The translations under genes were made by a program, and so were the position numbers. From Bacteroidota bacterium (GTDB lineage Bacteria > Bacteroidota > Ignavibacteria > Kryptoniales > JAKASW01): DNA of 41,946 nt. This document shows positions 187-34,709 of the stretch, one piece after another (the first letter of the stretch is position 1; each line of letters starts with the position of its first letter). The DNA lies in the NCBI GenBank assembly GCA_023381615.1, contig JAMCQL010000030.1:1-41946 (forward strand). Direction: 5' to 3'. Under the pieces are notes generated by a model. It had not been told where the DNA came from. It did no database searches and saw only the letters and a program-made list of their open reading frames with translations.

Positions 187-1038
187 GTGCGAACATTGAA
201 GTATATTCCATTCTTGATAGTGGTCGCTTCCGTGACATTTCACGGTTGTACCAGCATGCTTCTTGTAAAAAGCGATTGGAGCAACAACCAGATAGTTGTT
301 AATGGGAAAGATAACGACTGGGACGACAGCATGTTCTACATTCCCGATACACAATTGACTGCCGGCGTACGAAATGACAGCAATTATATGTACATAATAT
401 TGAAGAGCACAAATCGTCAGCAAGCATCTCAAATTCTTGGGCTGGGTTTGACAGTCTGGTTTGATCCAAGCGGCGGAACGGGCAAAGACTTCGGCATTCA
501 TTTCCCCCTGGGTCGAACTGAATTTCGAGAATTCAAACCGCAGACGGAACAGAACCAGGGAGAGAATCAGGGGTTTGTCGAAAAGACCCCTAACGAATTG
601 GAAATCATAGGAGTCAACAAAAACGGCCCGGTCAGGCTCAGCATCGCGGACGCAAAAGGGGTCGAGCTGCAACTCCATCGAGGCGAGAACTCGCTGGTTT
701 ATGAAATGAGGATTCCACTGCACCACTCTCCCGACCACCTGTACGCGATCGGCGCCAAAGGAGTGCAGGTCGGAATAGGGTTTGAGGGTGGTAAATTTGA
801 GCGGCCATCAGGCGGAAGAGAAGGCGGCTTCAGACGCGGCGAAGGGAGAGGTGGAATGCCGGGAGGCATGGGTGGAGACGGTGATGGCGGGATGGAAGGC
901 GGCGAAGGAAACCGAAGAGAAGGAGAACGAGGCCGAATCTCCGGTGAAAAAAAGGGAGTCGAGCCTCCGAAGCAGATTGACTTCTGGCTGAAGGCTACAT
1001 TAGCCAAAGAACCTCAATCTGCAAGTACGCAGCAGTAA
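187..1038 (+). CDS. Exported lipoprotein, CBM9/DOMON-like N-terminal part, Gly/Arg-rich tail
   Basis: The 283-residue protein has a lipoprotein signal (hydrophobic residues 6-20, lipobox FHGC with Cys21), so it should be lipid-anchored in the cell envelope. Residues about 30-200 begin with a 'VNGKDNDW' segment and later 'LTVWFDPSGG'. This resembles the carbohydrate-binding family 9/DOMON-like sandwich of sugar- or heme-binding exported proteins; I infer that from pattern only. Residues about 203-260 are low complexity, dominated by Gly, Arg, Glu and Met (runs such as GGMPGGMGGDGDGG). The start is GTG, chosen because AAAGGAGA lies just upstream and the signal peptide begins there. The gene stands alone, before an unrelated toxin-antitoxin pair. 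Exported and lipidated is likely; the ligand is unknown. Confidence 0.8.
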   Translation: MRTLKYIPFLIVVASVTFHGCTSMLLVKSDWSNNQIVVNGKDNDWDDSMFYIPDTQLTAGVRNDSNYMYIILKSTNRQQASQILGLGLTVWFDPSGGTGKDFGIHFPLGRTEFREFKPQTEQNQGENQGFVEKTPNELEIIGVNKNGPVRLSIADAKGVELQLHRGENSLVYEMRIPLHHSPDHLYAIGAKGVQVGIGFEGGKFERPSGGREGGFRRGEGRGGMPGGMGGDGDGGMEGGEGNRREGERGRISGEKKGVEPPKQIDFWLKATLAKEPQSASTQQ

Positions 1039-1468
1039 AAATCATTCGGGATGGGAAATGCTTACCGCGATATTCCTATCCCGAACCAATCCACACGATG
1101 TGGAAGCGGACAAATCATAACAAATCTAAACCGTCCGATCTTTATTTTTCTAACGATCTGTAGAAATTTGTTCGTCTCCATACAATCCGTCAGATATTTT
1201 TTGTGAAAAATAAATTCCCCAACTGCAACGCCAGTCAATTGGAAAGTAGGCATGAGAATCTAAGTAAGATGGCTCTTCTCCCAAACGAGTGGGTGAAAAA
1301 AGCGAGTTGCGGTCATGTCTTGAGCTTCGAGGAGCGACATGTAAAACCTCAGATAGGCAGCCTGCTTGTCAGCTTTTTTGGAAGACAGGCGTTATTTTTA
1401 TGTCGTACACCCTCGCCGCCGGGGGTTATTGCAATTATAGTTTTATTGTTTGTAAATTATTCTATACC
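1039..1468. other. Intergenic stretch without recognised content
   Basis: Short frames occur here (for example 1203-1472 plus), but none has a ribosome binding site or a recognisable domain. An in-frame extension of the following MNT gene back to 1289 also looks non-coding. I see no repeat or strong hairpin. Confidence 0.4.
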
Positions 1469-1780
1469 ATGATATCGAAGGAGAAAATATCAAGGATAGT
1501 ATCCGCAATTGTGCAACAATGCTCACCGCAGCAGATAATTCTCTTCGGTTCTCATGCCTGCGGCAAGCCGACTGAAGATAGCGACATCGACTTGTTTGTT
1601 GTGGCGAACATTCCGGGGCTTGCTTCGGAGCGAATACGAACCGTGCGGCGCGCAATCAAAGAAAATGTGCCGGTCGATGTTGTCGTCAGGACGCCGGAGG
1701 AAGTCGAACGTGCATTGCGGGGACGAGATTGGTTCGTGAAGGAGGTTTTCGAAAAAGGAAAAGTCCTGTATGCACGCTGA
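1469..1780 (+). CDS. mntA: MNT-type nucleotidyltransferase antitoxin of an MNT/HEPN pair
   Basis: The 103-residue protein has the minimal nucleotidyltransferase signature GS-x10-DxD (GSHACGKPTEDSDID, residues 27-41) and a third acidic position in 'VDVVVRT' near residue 70. In characterised MNT/HEPN systems the MNT protein AMPylates the HEPN partner and neutralises it. The ATG at 1469 is preferred over the frame opening at 1289 because residues 1-15 then form the usual first helix and the upstream codons read as noise. The gene overlaps the downstream HEPN gene by 11 nt, which implies translational coupling. The family and pairing are clear; whether this pair is an active toxin-antitoxin system or a defence module is inference. 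Confidence 0.88.
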   Translation: MISKEKISRIVSAIVQQCSPQQIILFGSHACGKPTEDSDIDLFVVANIPGLASERIRTVRRAIKENVPVDVVVRTPEEVERALRGRDWFVKEVFEKGKVLYAR

Positions 1781-2165
1781 TGCCGAGGCATGGATTGCCA
1801 AAGCCGAGGGGGACTATATGGGTACCCTAGCCTTAGTGAAGAAACGAAGCGGGAAGGTGTCTCACTTAACCTGTTTTGCCGCGCAGCAATGCGCGGAGAA
1901 ATATCTGAAGGCCTTTCTGGTGGAGCATAATGTTCCTTTTTCAAAGACTCACGATTTGACAAAAGACTTGCTCCCTCGCTGCTTGAAAATAAAAAATGAA
2001 TTTTCAATTCTCTTCCCGCAACTGGAATTGCTTGACCCGTACGCAGTTGAGTTCCGGTATCCAGGGGATGTTGTTACGCATGGTGAGGCGGTTAAGGCGG
2101 CAAAGATTGTCAGGAAGTTCGTCCGCGAAAAACTTGACTTGGAAAGACAACGGCGCTTGCTGTAA
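1770..2165 (+). CDS. hepT: HEPN-domain protein, probable toxin partner of the MNT gene
   Basis: The 131-residue, mostly helical protein carries the HEPN family pattern 'CFAAQQCAEKYLKAFLV' (residues 35-51) followed by 'KTHDL' and a C-terminal 'RYPGD'. HEPN proteins are often metal-independent RNases used in toxin-antitoxin, abortive-infection and CRISPR systems. The classical R-x4-6-H nuclease motif is not present; the nearest match is R-x7-H in RYPGDVVTH (residues about 96-104). This sequence therefore belongs to the HEPN branch common in MNT pairs, whose catalytic status is less certain. It starts inside the end of the MNT gene (ATGCACGCTGA overlap), so the two form one unit. A perfect hairpin follows the stop. 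Confidence 0.85.
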   Translation: MHADAEAWIAKAEGDYMGTLALVKKRSGKVSHLTCFAAQQCAEKYLKAFLVEHNVPFSKTHDLTKDLLPRCLKIKNEFSILFPQLELLDPYAVEFRYPGDVVTHGEAVKAAKIVRKFVREKLDLERQRRLL

Positions 2166-27790: not shown

Positions 27791-29455
27791 TCAGTAAAGC
27801 TTAATTGCCACTCCTTCTGTCGTCCATCTTGCCCGGACTTTCACAGGCTCACTGTAGACGCCAAACGGTTCCGCGAATTGATAGGGGTAACTCCTTCCGC
27901 TGAAGTAACCCATTCCCGAATCGTGTTGAGCATACGCACGGACAGTGTAATCGCCAGCCAAAATTCCATCGAGTTTAAATTTCCCGTCCTCACCTGCGAA
28001 GGTATAAAATCTCTTTCCGTCAGGCCTCATGGCAACGACAATTATTTTCTTCTTGAGAATTACCGGCGACACTTTCCCTTCAATATCACCAAGCGTTAAA
28101 AAGTCTATGGTTCTGAAATGCCGCGCCACAACCGAATCTTTTAACCCGCCGTTCATCCCTGTCCTGTAATTCAATTTCAACGTATACCATTCCAGTGAAT
28201 TAAGCCCTGTGGCGACAACTTTGAAAATCGTTGCGGACTCACGTTTGACAAATCTAGATACATCATTTCCGCTGCTGTCGTACAGCGAGACTTTTGCTCC
28301 GCCGGAATCCTGATGCATGGTCGGTGAAATGAATTGACAGAACAGCGTGTCGTACATTGTAATCTTCTGAAGAGAATCAGCAAAGTTAAAATAATATGGA
28401 GACAATTGGATCACCGCGCTGTCCGCCTTCATAACCACGGTGTTGTTGTTAGAAGACATTCTGTTCTGCTGCAAATCTTTGACACCGTCTGTCGCGGTTA
28501 CAAGATACTCCCGCTTTAAAGGCAAAGGCGATTGCATTCTTAACACAATCTCATATTTCTCCTTCTCAAGCCGGACGGCAAAATCGACGGGAAAAATCTT
28601 CGAGGTTGCAGAGTCGCGAACCACAAAATCGGAAGCTTTAATTCCTGACGAGTCAATCGGCTCGCTGAATTTCAATACTACCAGGCCATCATTCGCAAGG
28701 TCGGCGCCGTACAACTGAGGCGGCGTCGTGTCTTCAATCGCCGGGATGAAATTGACATCGCTCACTACCTCTACTTCCTTCGAGATTTCGATATCGTGTG
28801 TCGCGGAGGAATAGACATCCATCTGAGGTGCGTAAGTGAAATTTCGCATCTGGTCGTCGAAACAAATCAACCTGTACTTTCCATCAGCAAGTCCCTGCAA
28901 AACATATCTTCCGCTGTCATCCGATTGGGTCACGTACTTCGCAAGATCGGTGAATGGTCTGAGCGTGTCGATATCGCCGGTGATTGGAAATGCCGCGACT
29001 GTATACGGCTGTAACTTCGCCGCGTAAACTCTCCCGCTGACTGATCCTGTATCAATTTGCGCACCCGTCGAGAACACGAGGTTAAAAGATTTTCCCAAAT
29101 AATTGCCTCGCAAGTCCAGCGCCGTCGCGCCGAGAGTCAAAATGTACGTCCGGTCGCTTTGAAGCGGCTTGTGCAAGCTTATATCTAATGTCGTTCCCGA
29201 CCAATCGAAATTCATATCGGAGGCATTGAAAGGTGGGAAGTAAATTGCCGACTCCACACTCCTCTGCGACATGTACTTGTTAAATCGAAGTATGATCTTC
29301 TGCGAATTGAAATTCAACTCTTTCTGTTCAGGGGAAGACAAAATTATCTGTGGAGGAGACGTATCAACTGGACCGCCCGACGGCGGGATTTGTCCCGCGC
29401 ATCCGATGAGGACAAAGATCAAAATGAGATTAAGAAACCGGATTACTTTTGCCAA
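27791..29455 (-). CDS. Big_5 Ig-like domain lipoprotein
   Basis: The 554-residue protein has a lipoprotein signal (MAKVIRFLNLILIFVLIGC, Cys19) followed by the family's typical 'PPSGGPVDTSPPQI' opening. Residues about 35-132 form an Ig-like Big_5 domain and about 138-225 a CnaB-like module ('VSGRVYAAKLQPYTVAAF'). A second Big_5-like part covers about 240-340, and a last beta module sits near 465-554. It should be anchored at the cell surface or periplasm. It lies downstream of ubiX, overlapping it by 13 nt, at the end of the tsaD-led series. Function is unknown; such lipoproteins are common in the Bacteroidota. Confidence 0.88.
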   Translation of the reverse strand: MAKVIRFLNLILIFVLIGCAGQIPPSGGPVDTSPPQIILSSPEQKELNFNSQKIILRFNKYMSQRSVESAIYFPPFNASDMNFDWSGTTLDISLHKPLQSDRTYILTLGATALDLRGNYLGKSFNLVFSTGAQIDTGSVSGRVYAAKLQPYTVAAFPITGDIDTLRPFTDLAKYVTQSDDSGRYVLQGLADGKYRLICFDDQMRNFTYAPQMDVYSSATHDIEISKEVEVVSDVNFIPAIEDTTPPQLYGADLANDGLVVLKFSEPIDSSGIKASDFVVRDSATSKIFPVDFAVRLEKEKYEIVLRMQSPLPLKREYLVTATDGVKDLQQNRMSSNNNTVVMKADSAVIQLSPYYFNFADSLQKITMYDTLFCQFISPTMHQDSGGAKVSLYDSSGNDVSRFVKRESATIFKVVATGLNSLEWYTLKLNYRTGMNGGLKDSVVARHFRTIDFLTLGDIEGKVSPVILKKKIIVVAMRPDGKRFYTFAGEDGKFKLDGILAGDYTVRAYAQHDSGMGYFSGRSYPYQFAEPFGVYSEPVKVRARWTTEGVAIKLY

Positions 29456-30054
29456 GGCTCAAAGAGTTCTGCTTCAATGTTGAAAAGCGCGAGTATTCTT
29501 CCCGCGATGAAGTCTGCAAGTTCTTCTATTGTCGACGGTTTTTGGTAAAAAGCAGGCATTGCCGGCAAGATGTGCGCACCTGCATCTGACGCGGCAAGCA
29601 TATTTTTCAGATGAATCTTGTTGAGAGGAGTTTCGCGCGGAACGAGCACAAGTTTCCTTCCCTCCTTCAGCGTTACATCCGCCGATCGTTCTATCAAACT
29701 TCCGGCGATGCCTTGTGCAACTCCGGCGAGCGTCTTCATGGAACATGGAACGATCACCATCCCGTCTGTCTTGAACGAACCGCTCGAAAGCGACGCCGCC
29801 AGATCTCTATTGCTGTATTTCACGATGGCGCCGTTCAGCACAGCGTCTCCAAATTTTTCCCTGAAACTTTCTATCAGCGACTTGTTCTTCAAAGAGAAAT
29901 CGGTTTCGCTCTCGATCACGTAAGCTCCGTAATCCGAGATAACGAAATGTACTTCAACTCCGTTCACAAGAAGCGCACGCACGGTGTGAAGAGCATAGAT
30001 CGCCCCGCTTGCTCCTGTTATACCAACTATAATTTTCTTCTTGTTCTCAGACAC
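29443..30054 (-). CDS. ubiX: Flavin prenyltransferase UbiX
   Basis: The 203-residue protein has the N-terminal flavin loop 'VGITGASGAIYALHTVRAL', 'VPCSMKTLAGVAQGIAGSLIERSADVTLKEGRK' over residues about 100-132, and 'VPRETPLNKIHLKNMLAASDAGA' (about 137-159). It joins dimethylallyl phosphate to FMN to make the prenylated flavin cofactor of UbiD decarboxylases. No ubiD is in the window. The start is GTG (GTGTCTGAG), inside the last 8 nt of the upstream membrane-protein gene. Confidence 0.95.
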   Translation of the reverse strand: MSENKKKIIVGITGASGAIYALHTVRALLVNGVEVHFVISDYGAYVIESETDFSLKNKSLIESFREKFGDAVLNGAIVKYSNRDLAASLSSGSFKTDGMVIVPCSMKTLAGVAQGIAGSLIERSADVTLKEGRKLVLVPRETPLNKIHLKNMLAASDAGAHILPAMPAFYQKPSTIEELADFIAGRILALFNIEAELFEPWQK

Positions 30055-31483
30055 TAAGTTTCACCCTTTTGTTCACTATTCTTGAAGAAAATAGCTCAAG
30101 AATACCTACTAAGATAAACGCTAAAAGATTCACCATCAAAAGTTTTTCAATCTGTCCGTAAGAAAAATACAGGACCACCGTTACGATGAACGAATATGCC
30201 AGCATGAAAATCAAATTCGCGGTTTCTAAAGCACCGATCCGCGTAAATGGAAGAGAGAAAGGAAATTTCTTTTGCATGATCGAGAACCAGCTTGCGGAAA
30301 CGTGGGTTAGAAAATAAAATGTTATTGCAGTAATCGCAGAAGCCAACAACGAGTTTCGAAATATTAACACAAAGAAAATCGCCACAACCATCGGAATGTG
30401 AATCGTTAACAAAAGCGCTTTCCGGAAACCAAGGACAAACTTGCCTATATTGAAATCACCGTGAGTCTCGATGAGCCACGATGCTTCGTGATCTCTCGAA
30501 CCAAGTAAATTCTGCGACAGGAAATAGTGAACCATTACACCGGCGACAACAAGCGATGCTATGGGCGCGACGAACTCTGCGTCCACAAAACCAGGAAACA
30601 AGTCGAATCTCAAGACCGGTGTCTTTTGCATCGACCAGTAGATGGCAACCATAACCGGAGTCGCCGCAATAGCAATTGTCGAGAGCCGGAAGGAAGAATT
30701 CCGGAAAAGGTTGGATAGAAAGAAAATGAACCCCGCTTCCTCCTCATCGCTGCGGATAAAGACCGCCGTTTTTATCCGCTCAACAATTGACTGAAGATCA
30801 AGGCGAGATGTCGAACTGGACTCGTTAAGTTTCGCAATGAGTTTTTCCGGGAATGGAAACGCCGTAAAAAAGAAAGAAGTTATGAAAAGCGACACAAGAG
30901 AGAACCAAATTAAGCTTGAAAAGTCCGTGATGCCCTTTGCGCCGCTCGACAATTGAAACACAGCTAAAAAAGCTAACGCTAAAAATATTTGCAGAAGCGT
31001 CAAAGAAAGATTTGCGGCTCTCCCCGGCGGAGATGAAACAAAGAAAAGAAGAAGAAAATAGATCGAGACTGAAAAACAAAATGCGGCAAGAGATGCGATC
31101 ACGATTTCACTGAAATAGGCTTCGGCAGTGGACGACAGAAGAAACAGAGGAATCATTACCGAGACTATGACCGCCAAATCAAGCAGGATGACTGAGAGCA
31201 TAGATGTCAGCCTGAAAAGAGCAGTCGGCTGAACAAAGTAAAAATTTTCGGTGTCGCCTCCGCTGAAGAAAAGTCTTCTTGTTTCGACAACCAATGTGAA
31301 TAGTGCGACACCTGCCGACACCAGAGCAAAGCGATAGACTAAATTAATTTCACCCGCATCGCTGGAGGAAAGCGCGAGAAAAATTCCTACCAGGAAATCC
31401 GGCGCAAGAAATTTCAGCGCTCCGCGGAGTCCTTCCCCACCAATTGTCTGTTTCAGCCGAAGTTTGAGAAACGTTAAGATCAT
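30047..31483 (-). CDS. Polytopic membrane protein of unknown function
   Basis: The 478-residue protein has about ten to twelve predicted membrane helices and few charged loops. The first cytoplasmic loop contains 'ETRRLFFSGGDTENFYFVQP', and a central loop (residues about 225-250) is charged. The layout resembles the permease half of ABC-2-type exporters found in this group, but no ATPase gene is adjacent and I see no diagnostic motif. It follows the chorismate mutase-MltG gene by 10 nt and overlaps ubiX, so it is part of the same transcription unit. Confidence 0.7.
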   Translation of the reverse strand: MILTFLKLRLKQTIGGEGLRGALKFLAPDFLVGIFLALSSSDAGEINLVYRFALVSAGVALFTLVVETRRLFFSGGDTENFYFVQPTALFRLTSMLSVILLDLAVIVSVMIPLFLLSSTAEAYFSEIVIASLAAFCFSVSIYFLLLFFVSSPPGRAANLSLTLLQIFLALAFLAVFQLSSGAKGITDFSSLIWFSLVSLFITSFFFTAFPFPEKLIAKLNESSSTSRLDLQSIVERIKTAVFIRSDEEEAGFIFFLSNLFRNSSFRLSTIAIAATPVMVAIYWSMQKTPVLRFDLFPGFVDAEFVAPIASLVVAGVMVHYFLSQNLLGSRDHEASWLIETHGDFNIGKFVLGFRKALLLTIHIPMVVAIFFVLIFRNSLLASAITAITFYFLTHVSASWFSIMQKKFPFSLPFTRIGALETANLIFMLAYSFIVTVVLYFSYGQIEKLLMVNLLAFILVGILELFSSRIVNKRVKLSV

Positions 31484-31493
31484 CCTAAAAGCT

Positions 31494-32843
31494 TCACTCT
31501 CTCATCATCGCTTTTCGGTAAGCCCTTACGGCACGGAGATGTTCGCGGAAAGTTTCGCTGAATCTGTGCCCGCCGGTTCCCGTCGCCACAAAATAGAGAT
31601 AATTCGTCTTTGCCGGATACAGCGCAGCGAGAATAGATTTTCTTCCGGGACTGCAGATCGGTGTCGGCGGCAACCCAATCCGTTCATAAGTGTTGTAAGG
31701 AGATTTTATCCGCAGATCCTTGTAATAAATTCGCTTGTGTTCGCCGAGCGCATATTCGATTGTCGGATCAGCTTCGAGCGGCATCTGTTTCTTCAGCCTG
31801 TTGTAGTAAACACCGGCGATAATTGCTCTTTCCGAGTCGACTTTCGCTTCCGCTTCGACTAACGATGCAATCTTCATTACTTGCGAAACGGAATATCCGA
31901 TCGCCATCGCGCGCGACCTCAAGGAGTCGTTGAAAAACAGTTTGAACTCATCGACCATCCGGCTCAGGATATCATTGACATCCGTGCCGTAGTAAAAGTC
32001 ATAACTCTCCGGGAACAAATATCCTTCTAAATTTATCGAAGGAACGTTCATCGCCGCTGCCATCGAATCGCCGAGCGCTTCGTCCACAAACTGAAGCGAA
32101 TCCACGCCTAATTCACGGTGATAGATCGAAGCGATTTGTCTTACCGTCAGTCCCTCTGGAATCGTCACGGTTACAATCAAATTACTCTTTCCGGAGGCGA
32201 TAAGTTCCATCACGTCGTAATCGGAAAAATGTCCGGTAAAGAGATATTTGCCGGCTCTTATCTTGCGTTCAACCGCAAAAATTCTAGCGGCGATCTTGAA
32301 GGCAAATCTATTGGTTATCAGGTTATCTTTGGCGAGCGACGAATAGACTCTGTCGGCAGTCATGCCGCGCTCGATCGTCAGAATAGTTCCCTTTCCGTGG
32401 GCATTGTGGTACGGCGTGATAAACACGATGAACCATAAAAGGATAAAAGCGGCGACAGCACTCAACAAGAGGAGAGCTAAATTTTTCTTGTCTCGAAGAT
32501 TGATGCCGTTCGACTGCAGCATATCCATCAGGAAAAATTTCCCGAACTTAGAAGGCCGCAGAGAAACGCGACGCTCTTCCGCGCTTTCGCGTTCAAGCCG
32601 CCGAGACTCGTCGATGATTCTTTCGTAAACCCGTTTGACCGCCTCATCAGTGAGCGGTCCGGGATTCTCGCGGCTGACATTCTCAATGACCTGCTTTTCC
32701 CTTTCCGGCGAATAGACATCGAGTCTCTTTTTCTCCTTGATCTTTCCAATATCATCGGCATATTTTGCGCGCCTATTGAGAAGTTTGACGATCCGCTTGT
32801 CGAGCCGATCTATCTTCCTCCTCAGCGATTTCATTTCTTTCAT
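31494..32843 (-). CDS. mltG: Chorismate mutase (AroQ) fused to membrane-anchored MltG transglycosylase
   Basis: One open frame of 449 residues. Residues 7-86 match an AroQ-class chorismate mutase. Aligned to the E. coli P-protein mutase, its Arg11, Arg28, Lys39, Arg51, Glu52 and Ser84 correspond to Arg8, Arg25, Lys36, Arg48, Glu49 and Ser80; Asp48 is replaced by Ser45 and Gln88 by Glu84. A membrane helix spans about 122-142. Residues about 150-449 are a YceG/MltG lytic transglycosylase with 'VTIPEGLTVRQIA', 'LEGYLFPESYDF', catalytic-Glu motif 'ASLVEAEAKVDSER' and 'PLEADPTIEYALG'. The mutase would face the cytoplasm and the cell-wall enzyme the periplasm, a consistent topology. Its ATG overlaps the trpA stop (ATGA). 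Confidence 0.92.
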   Translation of the reverse strand: MKEMKSLRRKIDRLDKRIVKLLNRRAKYADDIGKIKEKKRLDVYSPEREKQVIENVSRENPGPLTDEAVKRVYERIIDESRRLERESAEERRVSLRPSKFGKFFLMDMLQSNGINLRDKKNLALLLLSAVAAFILLWFIVFITPYHNAHGKGTILTIERGMTADRVYSSLAKDNLITNRFAFKIAARIFAVERKIRAGKYLFTGHFSDYDVMELIASGKSNLIVTVTIPEGLTVRQIASIYHRELGVDSLQFVDEALGDSMAAAMNVPSINLEGYLFPESYDFYYGTDVNDILSRMVDEFKLFFNDSLRSRAMAIGYSVSQVMKIASLVEAEAKVDSERAIIAGVYYNRLKKQMPLEADPTIEYALGEHKRIYYKDLRIKSPYNTYERIGLPPTPICSPGRKSILAALYPAKTNYLYFVATGTGGHRFSETFREHLRAVRAYRKAMMRE

Positions 32844-33625
32844 TTGCCAACCGCTGTTCGGAGACTCTTTAGAAATTCGTAAGCAAATTTCGCCTCCTCT
32901 CCTTGAGGCGCCTTCGAAATTTGCTGAAGCAATGCGGAACCGACAACGATCCCGTCGGAATGTTTCGAGATCTCGCTCGCCGCTTCTGGAGTCGAGATAC
33001 CGAATCCAACAACAAAAGGTTTACCGGAATTTTTTCTGACGCGTTTTAAAAAATCAGTCACCTCCCCGCTCACAAGGTTCTGCCTCGCTCCGGTTACTCC
33101 TGTTACGGAAACACAGTAACTGAAATCTGTCGTCGCCTTGCTGATCTCTTCTATTCTATCATTGCTCGATGTCGGCGCGATCAACAAAACAAAACTCAAT
33201 CCGGCATCCTCGACCTCTTTTCGAATATCTGCAGATTCTTCTAAAGAAAGGTCGGGGATGATAACTCCATCAACGCCGGCATCGCTCAATTTCTCCGCAA
33301 AATTCTCCCCGATTCCATTTAGAAATGAATTGATATATCCCATCAGAATTATCGGGAGTTGAGAAGCCGTTCTAAATTTCCGGACGAACTCGAGTATCAA
33401 AGCGGGGGTAACTCCGTTCTCGATGGAAACTTGTGAAGCTCGCTGAATTACAGGCCCGTCGGCAAGCGGATCGCTGAATGGAATTCCCAACTCAACAAAA
33501 TCAACGCCGGCGGCGTCGGCAGATTCCAGAATTTCAAATGTCGATTCGGCTCTCGGAAAACCGGGCATTATGTAAGCGCTGAAAAGTTTCTTGTGTCCAC
33601 CGCCTTTTGCGGATTCGTTTATCAT
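32840..33625 (-). CDS. trpA: Tryptophan synthase alpha subunit
   Basis: From the ATG at 33625 the protein is 261 residues (E. coli 268). It has the catalytic Glu and Asp in 'FVELGIPFSDPLADGP' and the phosphate-binding 'VGFGISTPEAA' and 'DGIVVGSAL'. It cleaves indole-3-glycerol phosphate to indole and glyceraldehyde-3-phosphate. The frame is open to 33706, but those extra codons overlap tsaD and are basic and unconserved. trpB and the rest of the trp genes are absent here; instead trpA sits between tsaD and the chorismate mutase-MltG gene, to which it is joined by a 4-nt overlap. Confidence 0.95.
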   Translation of the reverse strand: MINESAKGGGHKKLFSAYIMPGFPRAESTFEILESADAAGVDFVELGIPFSDPLADGPVIQRASQVSIENGVTPALILEFVRKFRTASQLPIILMGYINSFLNGIGENFAEKLSDAGVDGVIIPDLSLEESADIRKEVEDAGLSFVLLIAPTSSNDRIEEISKATTDFSYCVSVTGVTGARQNLVSGEVTDFLKRVRKNSGKPFVVGFGISTPEAASEISKHSDGIVVGSALLQQISKAPQGEEAKFAYEFLKSLRTAVGK

Positions 33626-33644
33626 TCGATTTATTCTGTTCAAT

Positions 33645-34709
33645 CTAAAAACTCTCTGCCGGAGGCTGATGCGTTCGGCGAGTCGCGTCATCGACCTCAG
33701 GCTCAAATTCGAGGTTTGGGGTTGGCTTCAAAGTAAGGTCGGAGATCATTCCGAATTTTTGATATTTGAAATGCGCGGCGATACCGATCATTGCGGCATT
33801 GTCCGTGCAGTAAAGCGGTCGCGGAAAAAACGTCTTCGCGTTAATCGATTCCGCACGTGCTTGCAAAGTCGTGCGAAGCTCGCGGTTTGCGGCAACGCCG
33901 CCGGCAACCGTGATCGACTTTACAAAGTACTTTTCTGCGGCACGAATCGTCTTTTCGACAAGGACATCAATAACCGCGCGCTGGAAAGACGCACAGATGT
34001 CACGAACAAGTTTTTCATCTTTGATCTCTGAATTGTATTTCAATTCGCGCAGAAGATAAAGGACGCTCGTTTTTATTCCTGAAAAACTAAACTTAAAAGA
34101 ATCTTCGCTCATGAACGAGCGCGGAAACTTAAAAGCATTCGGGTTCCCTTCCTTCGCAAGCTCATCAATGACGGGACCGCCCGGGTAACCGAGTCCGAGA
34201 AGCTTGGCAACTTTATCGAACGCCTCTCCGGCCGCATCGTCGCGCGTTTGACCGAGCAATTCATGCGAGTAAGGTTCTTTAACATGTACCAGCATCGTGT
34301 GTCCGCCGCTGACGATGAGCGCGATGAAAGGAAACTGCGGCTTCTCACCTTCGAGAAAACTCGAATAGAGATGTCCCTCCATGTGATTTATTCCGACGAC
34401 GGGAATACCGCGCGATGCCGCAAACGCCTTAGCAAAACTCAATCCGACAATCAACGAGCCCGCGAGACCCGGCCCGTAAGTTACCGCAACGGAATCAATA
34501 TCGTCTTTTGATATGGAGGACCTTTTCAAAGTCTCTTCTATGACCGGCACGATGAGTTCCATATGAGCGCGCGAGGCAAGCTCGGGAACAACGCCGCCGT
34601 ACTCGCTGTGCACCAGTTGAGATGAAATGACGACGGACTTCAGCATGCCGTCTCGCAAAACTGCAGCGGAGCATTCATCGCACGATGTCTCAATAGCAAG
34701 GAGATTCAT
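33645..34709 (-). CDS. tsaD: tRNA N6-adenosine threonylcarbamoyltransferase
   Basis: The 354-residue protein is of the Kae1/Qri7/TsaD family. It has metal-binding His109 and His113 in 'GINHMEGH', the ASKHA ATPase motifs ('ALIVSGGHTMLV', 'AGGVAANREL') and 'TDNAAMIG' near the C-terminus. It transfers the threonylcarbamoyl group to A37 of ANN-decoding tRNAs, working with TsaB and TsaE, which are not in the window. It is the first gene of the minus-strand series tsaD - trpA - mutase/MltG - membrane protein - ubiX - lipoprotein. The C-terminal tail 'RRTHQPPAESF' looks unconserved. Confidence 0.97.
   Translation of the reverse strand: MNLLAIETSCDECSAAVLRDGMLKSVVISSQLVHSEYGGVVPELASRAHMELIVPVIEETLKRSSISKDDIDSVAVTYGPGLAGSLIVGLSFAKAFAASRGIPVVGINHMEGHLYSSFLEGEKPQFPFIALIVSGGHTMLVHVKEPYSHELLGQTRDDAAGEAFDKVAKLLGLGYPGGPVIDELAKEGNPNAFKFPRSFMSEDSFKFSFSGIKTSVLYLLRELKYNSEIKDEKLVRDICASFQRAVIDVLVEKTIRAAEKYFVKSITVAGGVAANRELRTTLQARAESINAKTFFPRPLYCTDNAAMIGIAAHFKYQKFGMISDLTLKPTPNLEFEPEVDDATRRTHQPPAESF

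Follow-up and report, generated by a model that had tools for sequence, protein, structure and literature searches.

The question raised by this locus is whether a single gene joins a chorismate mutase (CM) to the cell-wall transglycosylase MltG across a membrane and, if so, what the joined protein does. The stretch of DNA analysed here, called the window throughout, is 41,946 nucleotides long. A sequence-only reading had proposed one uninterrupted frame that runs from an AroQ-type CM domain through a membrane helix into a complete MltG domain. The frame is indeed open over its whole length of 449 amino acids (fused gene aroQ::mltG; Table 1), and a Pfam scan of it found CM_2 at residues 7–84 (84.7 bits, cut-off 27) and YceG at residues 155–440 (288.4 bits, cut-off 32.4), both over cut-off, with no further domain; LysM was not among the matches. 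Thus the first 90 residues hold a clear CM_2 match. In the NCBIfam search the MltG model TIGR00247 reached 265.3 bits against a cut-off of 103.4. Among the CM equivalogs of NCBIfam, CM_P2 fell just below its cut-off (69.0 versus 69.55 bits), and the others were missed by a wide margin, CM_A for example with 61.1 versus 106.35. We therefore class the domain as CM_2 only.

Table 1. Features of the fused gene, its upstream neighbours in the window and the upstream genes of one f22 locus (L121).
Feature	Position	Strand	Evidence
Fused gene aroQ::mltG	31494..32843	-	449 aa, single open frame
AroQ-type chorismate mutase domain, residues 7–84	32592..32825	-	CM_2 84.7 bits; AF2 model
Linker, residues about 88–120	32484..32582	-	charged, little conserved (alignment); dN/dS
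Membrane helix, residues about 121–143	32415..32483	-	hydropathy and AF2 model
MltG (YceG) endolytic transglycosylase domain, residues 155–440	31524..32381	-	YceG and TIGR00247
Codon of Glu332, counterpart of Glu218, the catalytic residue in E. coli MltG	31848..31850	-	alignment to E. coli MltG
ATGA overlap, trpA stop and start of the fusion	32840..32843	-	sequence (TCAT on the forward strand)
trpA, upstream neighbour	32840..33706	-	Trp_syntA 262.4 bits, TIGR00262 225.9 bits; true start maybe inside the frame
tsaD, upstream neighbour in most aroQ-mltG loci	33645..34709	-	TsaD 327.6 bits
Prephenate dehydratase and proline dehydrogenase family genes, upstream of the L121 fusion	L121:3-836 and 908-1807		

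The membrane helix claimed between the two domains is present as well. The best 19 residues have a mean hydropathy of 2.99, and the AF2 full-length model places a helix at residues 119–142, so that the MltG domain is preceded by an N-terminal anchor. The CM half of that model has low confidence (pLDDT about 41–53) and was left unused for the CM. When residues 1–90 were modelled separately with 57 relatives, the result was a three-helix AroQ fold (helices 2–39, 46–58 and 66–89) with a pLDDT of 92.8. Its best match in the PDB is 2d8e with a TM score of 0.91, and 1ecm_A scores 0.87. The overlap of four nucleotides with trpA, also part of the earlier reading, is visible on the minus strand as ATGA.

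To assess how widespread the fusion is, we surveyed 61 genomes, the window's own and 60 relatives, all of which match the query. In the window's genus, eight of 13 genomes carry the uninterrupted fusion and four carry two adjacent genes, and in the remaining one (G008) the match starts at a contig end. The sister family f2 is fused in all seven sampled genomes. Samples of the class (245 genomes), the phylum (395 genomes) and f22, a distant family of the same class (80 genomes), added 21 further fused genomes, all of them in f22, among the matches listed; class and phylum counts refer to listed matches of which a part was fetched as loci, and more fusions are possible. After removal of duplicates there are at least 36 distinct fused genes (eight in f1, seven in f2 and 21 in f22), 15 of them in the window's order, beside at least 56 unfused neighbouring aroQ-mltG pairs. 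Since the uninterrupted fusion is also present in seven further genomes of the genus and in every one of the seven sampled from the sister family, it is not the product of a frameshift or assembly error near codons 86–120. The fusion is widespread rather than unique to the window's genome, and the chain is a new CM fusion architecture, real and recurrent. Though the fused genomes that have names are metagenome-assembled and the window's own genome lies in 86 contigs, a frameshift, assembly error or chimaera can practically be dismissed for the fused group in view of at least 36 distinct fused genes with intact frames, the closest pair of which has an MltG dS of 0.32, with other pairs saturated.

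Next, we analyzed the residues on which catalysis would depend. Alignment to E. coli PheA bore out the claim that six active-site residues are kept: R8 corresponds to Arg11, R25 to Arg28, K36 to Lys39, R48 to Arg51, E49 to Glu52 and S80 to Ser84, and the position of Gln88 is taken by E84. We take these seven residues of E. coli PheA to be its active-site positions. R8, R25, K36, R48 and E49 are kept in all 36 fused genes and S80 in 35, and position 84 holds Glu in 15 of the genes and Gln in the other 21. In the 56 unfused neighbour pairs the first five residues are likewise invariant, and S80 is found in 43. The position of E. coli Asp48 is Ser45 in the window's protein and varies across the family. 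The catalytic Glu of MltG, located by alignment to the E. coli protein, is Glu in all 36 fused and all 56 unfused rows. We estimated dN/dS by the Nei-Gojobori method for the eight closest pairs of fused genes, for which several dS values are saturated. In the six pairs with finite estimates for both domains the ratio was 0.02–0.03 for the CM and 0.03–0.09 for MltG, and over all pairs with an estimable dS the MltG ratio reached 0.10; the linker exceeded both domains in most finite pairs, not in all (0.026 in one). These ratios point to strong purifying selection on the CM domain, which evolves more slowly than MltG.

We then asked whether the fused mutase is the one that the cell uses. Profile searches of the window's genome found one CM_2 domain, the fused one, and one MltG match; CM_1 (AroH-type) had no match in this genome, the one searched for it. 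No CM_2 besides the fused one was found in 14 of 15 fused f1/f2 genomes and in 21 of 21 fused f22 genomes, i.e. in 35 of 36. The exception, G017, has a second CM that shares one frame with a dehydratase. All 15 fused f1/f2 genomes have both a prephenate dehydratase and a prephenate dehydrogenase. In f22 the dehydratase was found in 17 of 21 fused genomes (one match is partial), which makes 32 of 36 overall, and in 16 of these 17 it lies on the same contig and strand, with the fusion about 2.3–2.7 kb downstream of it. A dehydratase match is missing from four fused f22 genomes: G555 and G563, where the fusion lies less than 1 kb from the contig start, G564, whose assembly is 85% complete, and G156, which is 99% complete. 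The fused CM of G156 (L055 / L123) is also the most diverged one, with 45–49 bits and Ser80 changed to Thr; decay or a changed function of this mutase domain is possible.

Because the fused CM is the sole CM_2 found in 35 of 36 fused genomes, loss of catalysis is unlikely, and judged from these sequence data the fused mutase very probably does the housekeeping work of the cell and is not a recruited sensor. The sequence-only reading had left two options, a mutase that is tethered to the membrane and active, or one recruited as a regulatory or ligand-sensing domain. The sequences support the first well and brought nothing positive for the second. That the mutase domain serves MltG as a non-catalytic sensor or scaffold is a very improbable reading: G156 is the single odd case that would suit it, and it is contradicted by the sole-CM pattern with a dehydratase in most genomes, by the retained active-site residues and by a CM dN/dS below that of MltG. 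We therefore rejected the sensor-only reading.

The explanation that we consider likely is a bifunctional membrane-anchored protein, in which the sole cytosolic CM and the sole periplasmic MltG of the cell both keep their own jobs. The cytosolic N-terminal domain would convert chorismate to prephenate as the cell's only chorismate mutase, and the separate prephenate dehydratase and prephenate dehydrogenase would lead from there to Phe and Tyr. A single helix would take the chain across the inner membrane, and the C-terminal domain, the cell's only MltG, would cut nascent glycan strands in the periplasm. The E. coli AroQ-alpha CM consists of two intertwined protomers with two active sites, as the available part of PMC10520331 describes. 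If AroQ-alpha mutases in general work as intertwined dimers, as we assume, dimerisation of the mutase part would probably bring two MltG domains together. Cross-talk beyond the two catalytic jobs would not be needed. As to its origin, the fusion most likely arose by loss of a stop codon between tightly packed neighbours, often in the order tsaD-(trpA)-aroQ-mltG.

The aroQ-mltG neighbourhood is seen well beyond the fused genes. Unfused aroQ-mltG pairs occur in loci of Calditrichota, Chlorobiaceae, Chloroherpetonaceae, Rhodothermales and Ignavibacteria. Counting duplicates, the upstream neighbour tsaD was listed for 46 of 48 fused loci and for 47 of 61 unfused ones; the flanks fetched for Calditrichota and Chlorobiaceae do not contain it, and trpA is present in some loci. 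The trpA overlap in the window is part of this wider conserved string tsaD-(trpA)-aroQ-mltG. In the f22 locus L121 the genes follow each other as dehydratase, proline dehydrogenase, tsaD, fusion and a Big_5 lipoprotein-like gene. In f22, 25 CM_2 matches have an open frame no longer than 160 aa. Of these, 24 adjoin mltG, and the remaining one is partial and comes from G582, where MltG has no match. The CM frame of another f22 genome, G605, is 209 aa long, possibly a cut-off gene, and that of G041 from the class sample is 188 aa long; both lie on a contig other than that of mltG. Where the CM is part of a long frame with another domain, no such linkage to mltG was seen in those genomes.

Many unfused aroQ-mltG pairs overlap or abut. 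Their relative reading frames in the 56 unfused rows were the same in 19 and differed in the two possible ways in 16 and 21. As the same frame is not favoured, selected read-through of the stop codon in unfused pairs was ruled out. In five of the six f6 rows, mltG starts right behind the aroQ stop and in the same frame. Losing that single stop would yield a fusion.

To follow gains and splits of the fusion we built a tree of the joined CM and MltG domains of 92 rows with a quick method; it is a domain tree and not a species tree. The fused or unfused label needs nine changes on this tree, five of which are forced by well-supported branches. A single clade of the 36 fused rows was rejected on the quick tree (p-AU 2.35e-38), and therefore the fusion most simply arose at least twice. 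Gains and losses are not separated by the domain tree alone. With the root on the unfused Calditrichota, the simplest reading of the sequences would be that the fusion was gained once in the window's order and one or more times in f22, and the fusion is most simply derived from the old aroQ-mltG neighbour pair.

A single clade of the four genomes of the window's genus that have separate genes was rejected (p-AU 0.009). One of them, G005, falls among the fused rows on branches of moderate support (92/93 and 81/73), and the tree does not resolve the deepest branches of the genus. Because every sampled genome of the sister family is fused, we read the separate genes in the genus as two splits. 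In three of these genomes the separate mltG has initiation signals of its own, namely AAGGAGA before the ATG in G003 and, in both G009 and G012, an ATGA overlap. The mutase and MltG frames of G005 (L010:1500-1540) join where eight T follow each other, close to a strong AAGGAGA; a genuine split, slippage or an error of sequencing could each account for this junction. Thus there are two apparent secondary splits inside the genus, one of which depends on the doubtful G005 junction. They suggest that physical linkage is not indispensable, and they argue against an obligate link of the mutase to MltG.

A further question is whether the fused frame yields one polypeptide or two. The two activities could be parted after transcription, by internal initiation or proteolysis, to give free MltG or free mutase, and the fusion would then be mostly formal. 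This reading would be in line with an ATG or GTG between CM and helix in 25 of 36 fused genes, and with a linker that in most pairs is under less constraint than either domain, which a cleavage site would permit. However, 11 of the 36 have neither ATG nor GTG between the CM and the start of the helix, and in six of the 36 TTG is missing there as well, so that in these six the start of an anchored free MltG would have to lie within the sequence that encodes the mutase. An internal start between mutase and helix, not possible in these six genes, was therefore rejected as a general rule, though it may occur in others. The window has ATG codons at residues 106 and 108, yet by eye there is no recognisable ribosome-binding site upstream of them, and distinct initiation signals are seen instead where the genes are separate (G003, G009, G012). 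In G002 and G006 an internal ATG stands behind a purine-rich stretch, and some separate MltG may be made in these two genomes. On balance we regard a general parting of the two activities as rather improbable.

A different departure from two independent jobs would be regulatory coupling, in which the dimerisation or ligand state of an active mutase also alters MltG via the helix, linking aromatic supply to glycan-strand length. The proposed ligands are chorismate, prephenate and Phe/Tyr. Several observations are consistent with it. The fusion most simply arose at least twice (one-clade p-AU 2e-38), stand-alone CM matches in f22 adjoin mltG in nearly every case, and the aroQ-mltG pair extends to Calditrichota, Chlorobiaceae and Rhodothermales. 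There is also a precedent, as in Enterococcus faecalis IreK phosphorylates the cytoplasmic segment of MltG, which affects cephalosporin resistance according to the available part of PMC12369325. Finally, pabC abuts mltG in E. coli, and pabC-mltG synteny in Pseudomonas aeruginosa is listed within folate-peptidoglycan connections in the accessible text of PMC11898565. However, the two apparent splits in the window's own genus suggest that the physical link is dispensable; neither the sequence nor the length of the linker is constant; and overlapping or abutting neighbours may fuse by chance. We thus consider coupling unlikely.

In its furthest form, the protein would be a transmembrane metabolic governor: the CM dimer would make prephenate, and its ligand-bound state would set the pairing or the activity of the two MltG domains across the membrane. 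This we hold to be improbable. If it were true, release of nascent glycan strands would follow the supply of aromatic precursors, and the old aroQ-mltG and pabC-mltG neighbourhoods would be the same link in unfused form.

Returning to the bifunctional protein with two independent jobs, we compared it with known fusions of either partner. The earlier reading knew of no described protein of this build, and our searches of open-licence publications, mostly judged by title and the start of the abstract, agree in that no published description of a CM-MltG fusion was found; the build may already stand uncommented in domain-architecture databases. The single publication among them that names chorismate mutase together with MltG or YceG has TyrA as an entry in a table. 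The CM fusions described in the available parts of PMC10520331 and PMC1173090 pair the CM with pathway enzymes. With the AroQ-alpha fusions PheA (CM-PDT), TyrA (CM-PDH) and DAHP synthase-CM the window's protein shares an N-terminal CM_2 domain of about 90 aa and the same active-site residues, and the nearest solved relatives of the fused CM are the CM domains of DAHP synthases (2d8d/2d8e, 5gmu, 5j6f). In contrast to these proteins and to CM-cyclohexadienyl dehydratase (CM-CDT), the partner here is a peptidoglycan enzyme of the periplasm that has no place in the shikimate pathway and is reached via a membrane helix, and unlike in PheA and TyrA the dehydratase and dehydrogenase are separate genes. 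The exported CM-CDT fusions resemble it as rare CM fusions with an extracytoplasmic part, as far as the available part of PMC10520331 describes them. There, however, both domains are exported, the CM is of the AroQ-gamma type, and each of the nine organisms also encodes a CM that is likely intracellular (same part of PMC10520331), whereas the CM studied here is expected to remain in the cytosol, and no other was found.

On the side of MltG, the likeness to the E. coli protein and to Listeria Lmo1499 (4iiw) lies in the membrane helix, the YceG domain and the catalytic Glu. E. coli MltG starts with the membrane helix, whereas here a folded enzyme domain is added on the cytosolic side. Extra sequence on that side is also known from MltG of E. 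faecalis and Streptococcus pneumoniae (available parts of PMC12369325 and PMC8135044). The E. faecalis segment is predicted to be disordered and is phosphorylated by IreK, and the accessible parts of the two papers describe no enzyme domain.

The fusion would link central aromatic metabolism with cell-wall cutting across the membrane, whereas the known CM fusions, as far as the available sources go, join pathway neighbours. The sole known mutase of the cell would thereby become a membrane protein. Its fused, separate-but-adjacent and unlinked versions form a natural experiment on the meaning of the neighbourhood of chorismate enzymes and mltG. For annotators and geneticists it calls for caution: chorismate mutase and MltG may share a single gene here, and therefore its removal would hit Phe/Tyr synthesis and strand termination together.

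The genes around the fusion also show some recurrent features. Directly downstream of it the window encodes a hydrophobic protein of 478 aa (30047-31483, minus strand) that has no Pfam or NCBIfam match, and a similar frame stands behind mltG in G005 and G003 (L010, L013). The gene string continues with a UbiX-family flavin prenyltransferase (29443-30054, minus strand; NCBIfam) and a Big_5 domain protein with a lipoprotein-like start (27791-29455). A gene with a lipoprotein-like start, Cys-Ala-Asn-Gln, is a conserved neighbour behind mltG in several lineages (L121:4223-5911, L123:862-2571, L027:2472-3962), and a domain scan of the one in L121 found Big_5 domains. In E. coli K-12 (L201:1801-3635) pabC and mltG are two bases apart. 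Thus two unrelated enzymes of the chorismate pathway, aroQ here and pabC in E. coli, neighbour mltG in different phyla.
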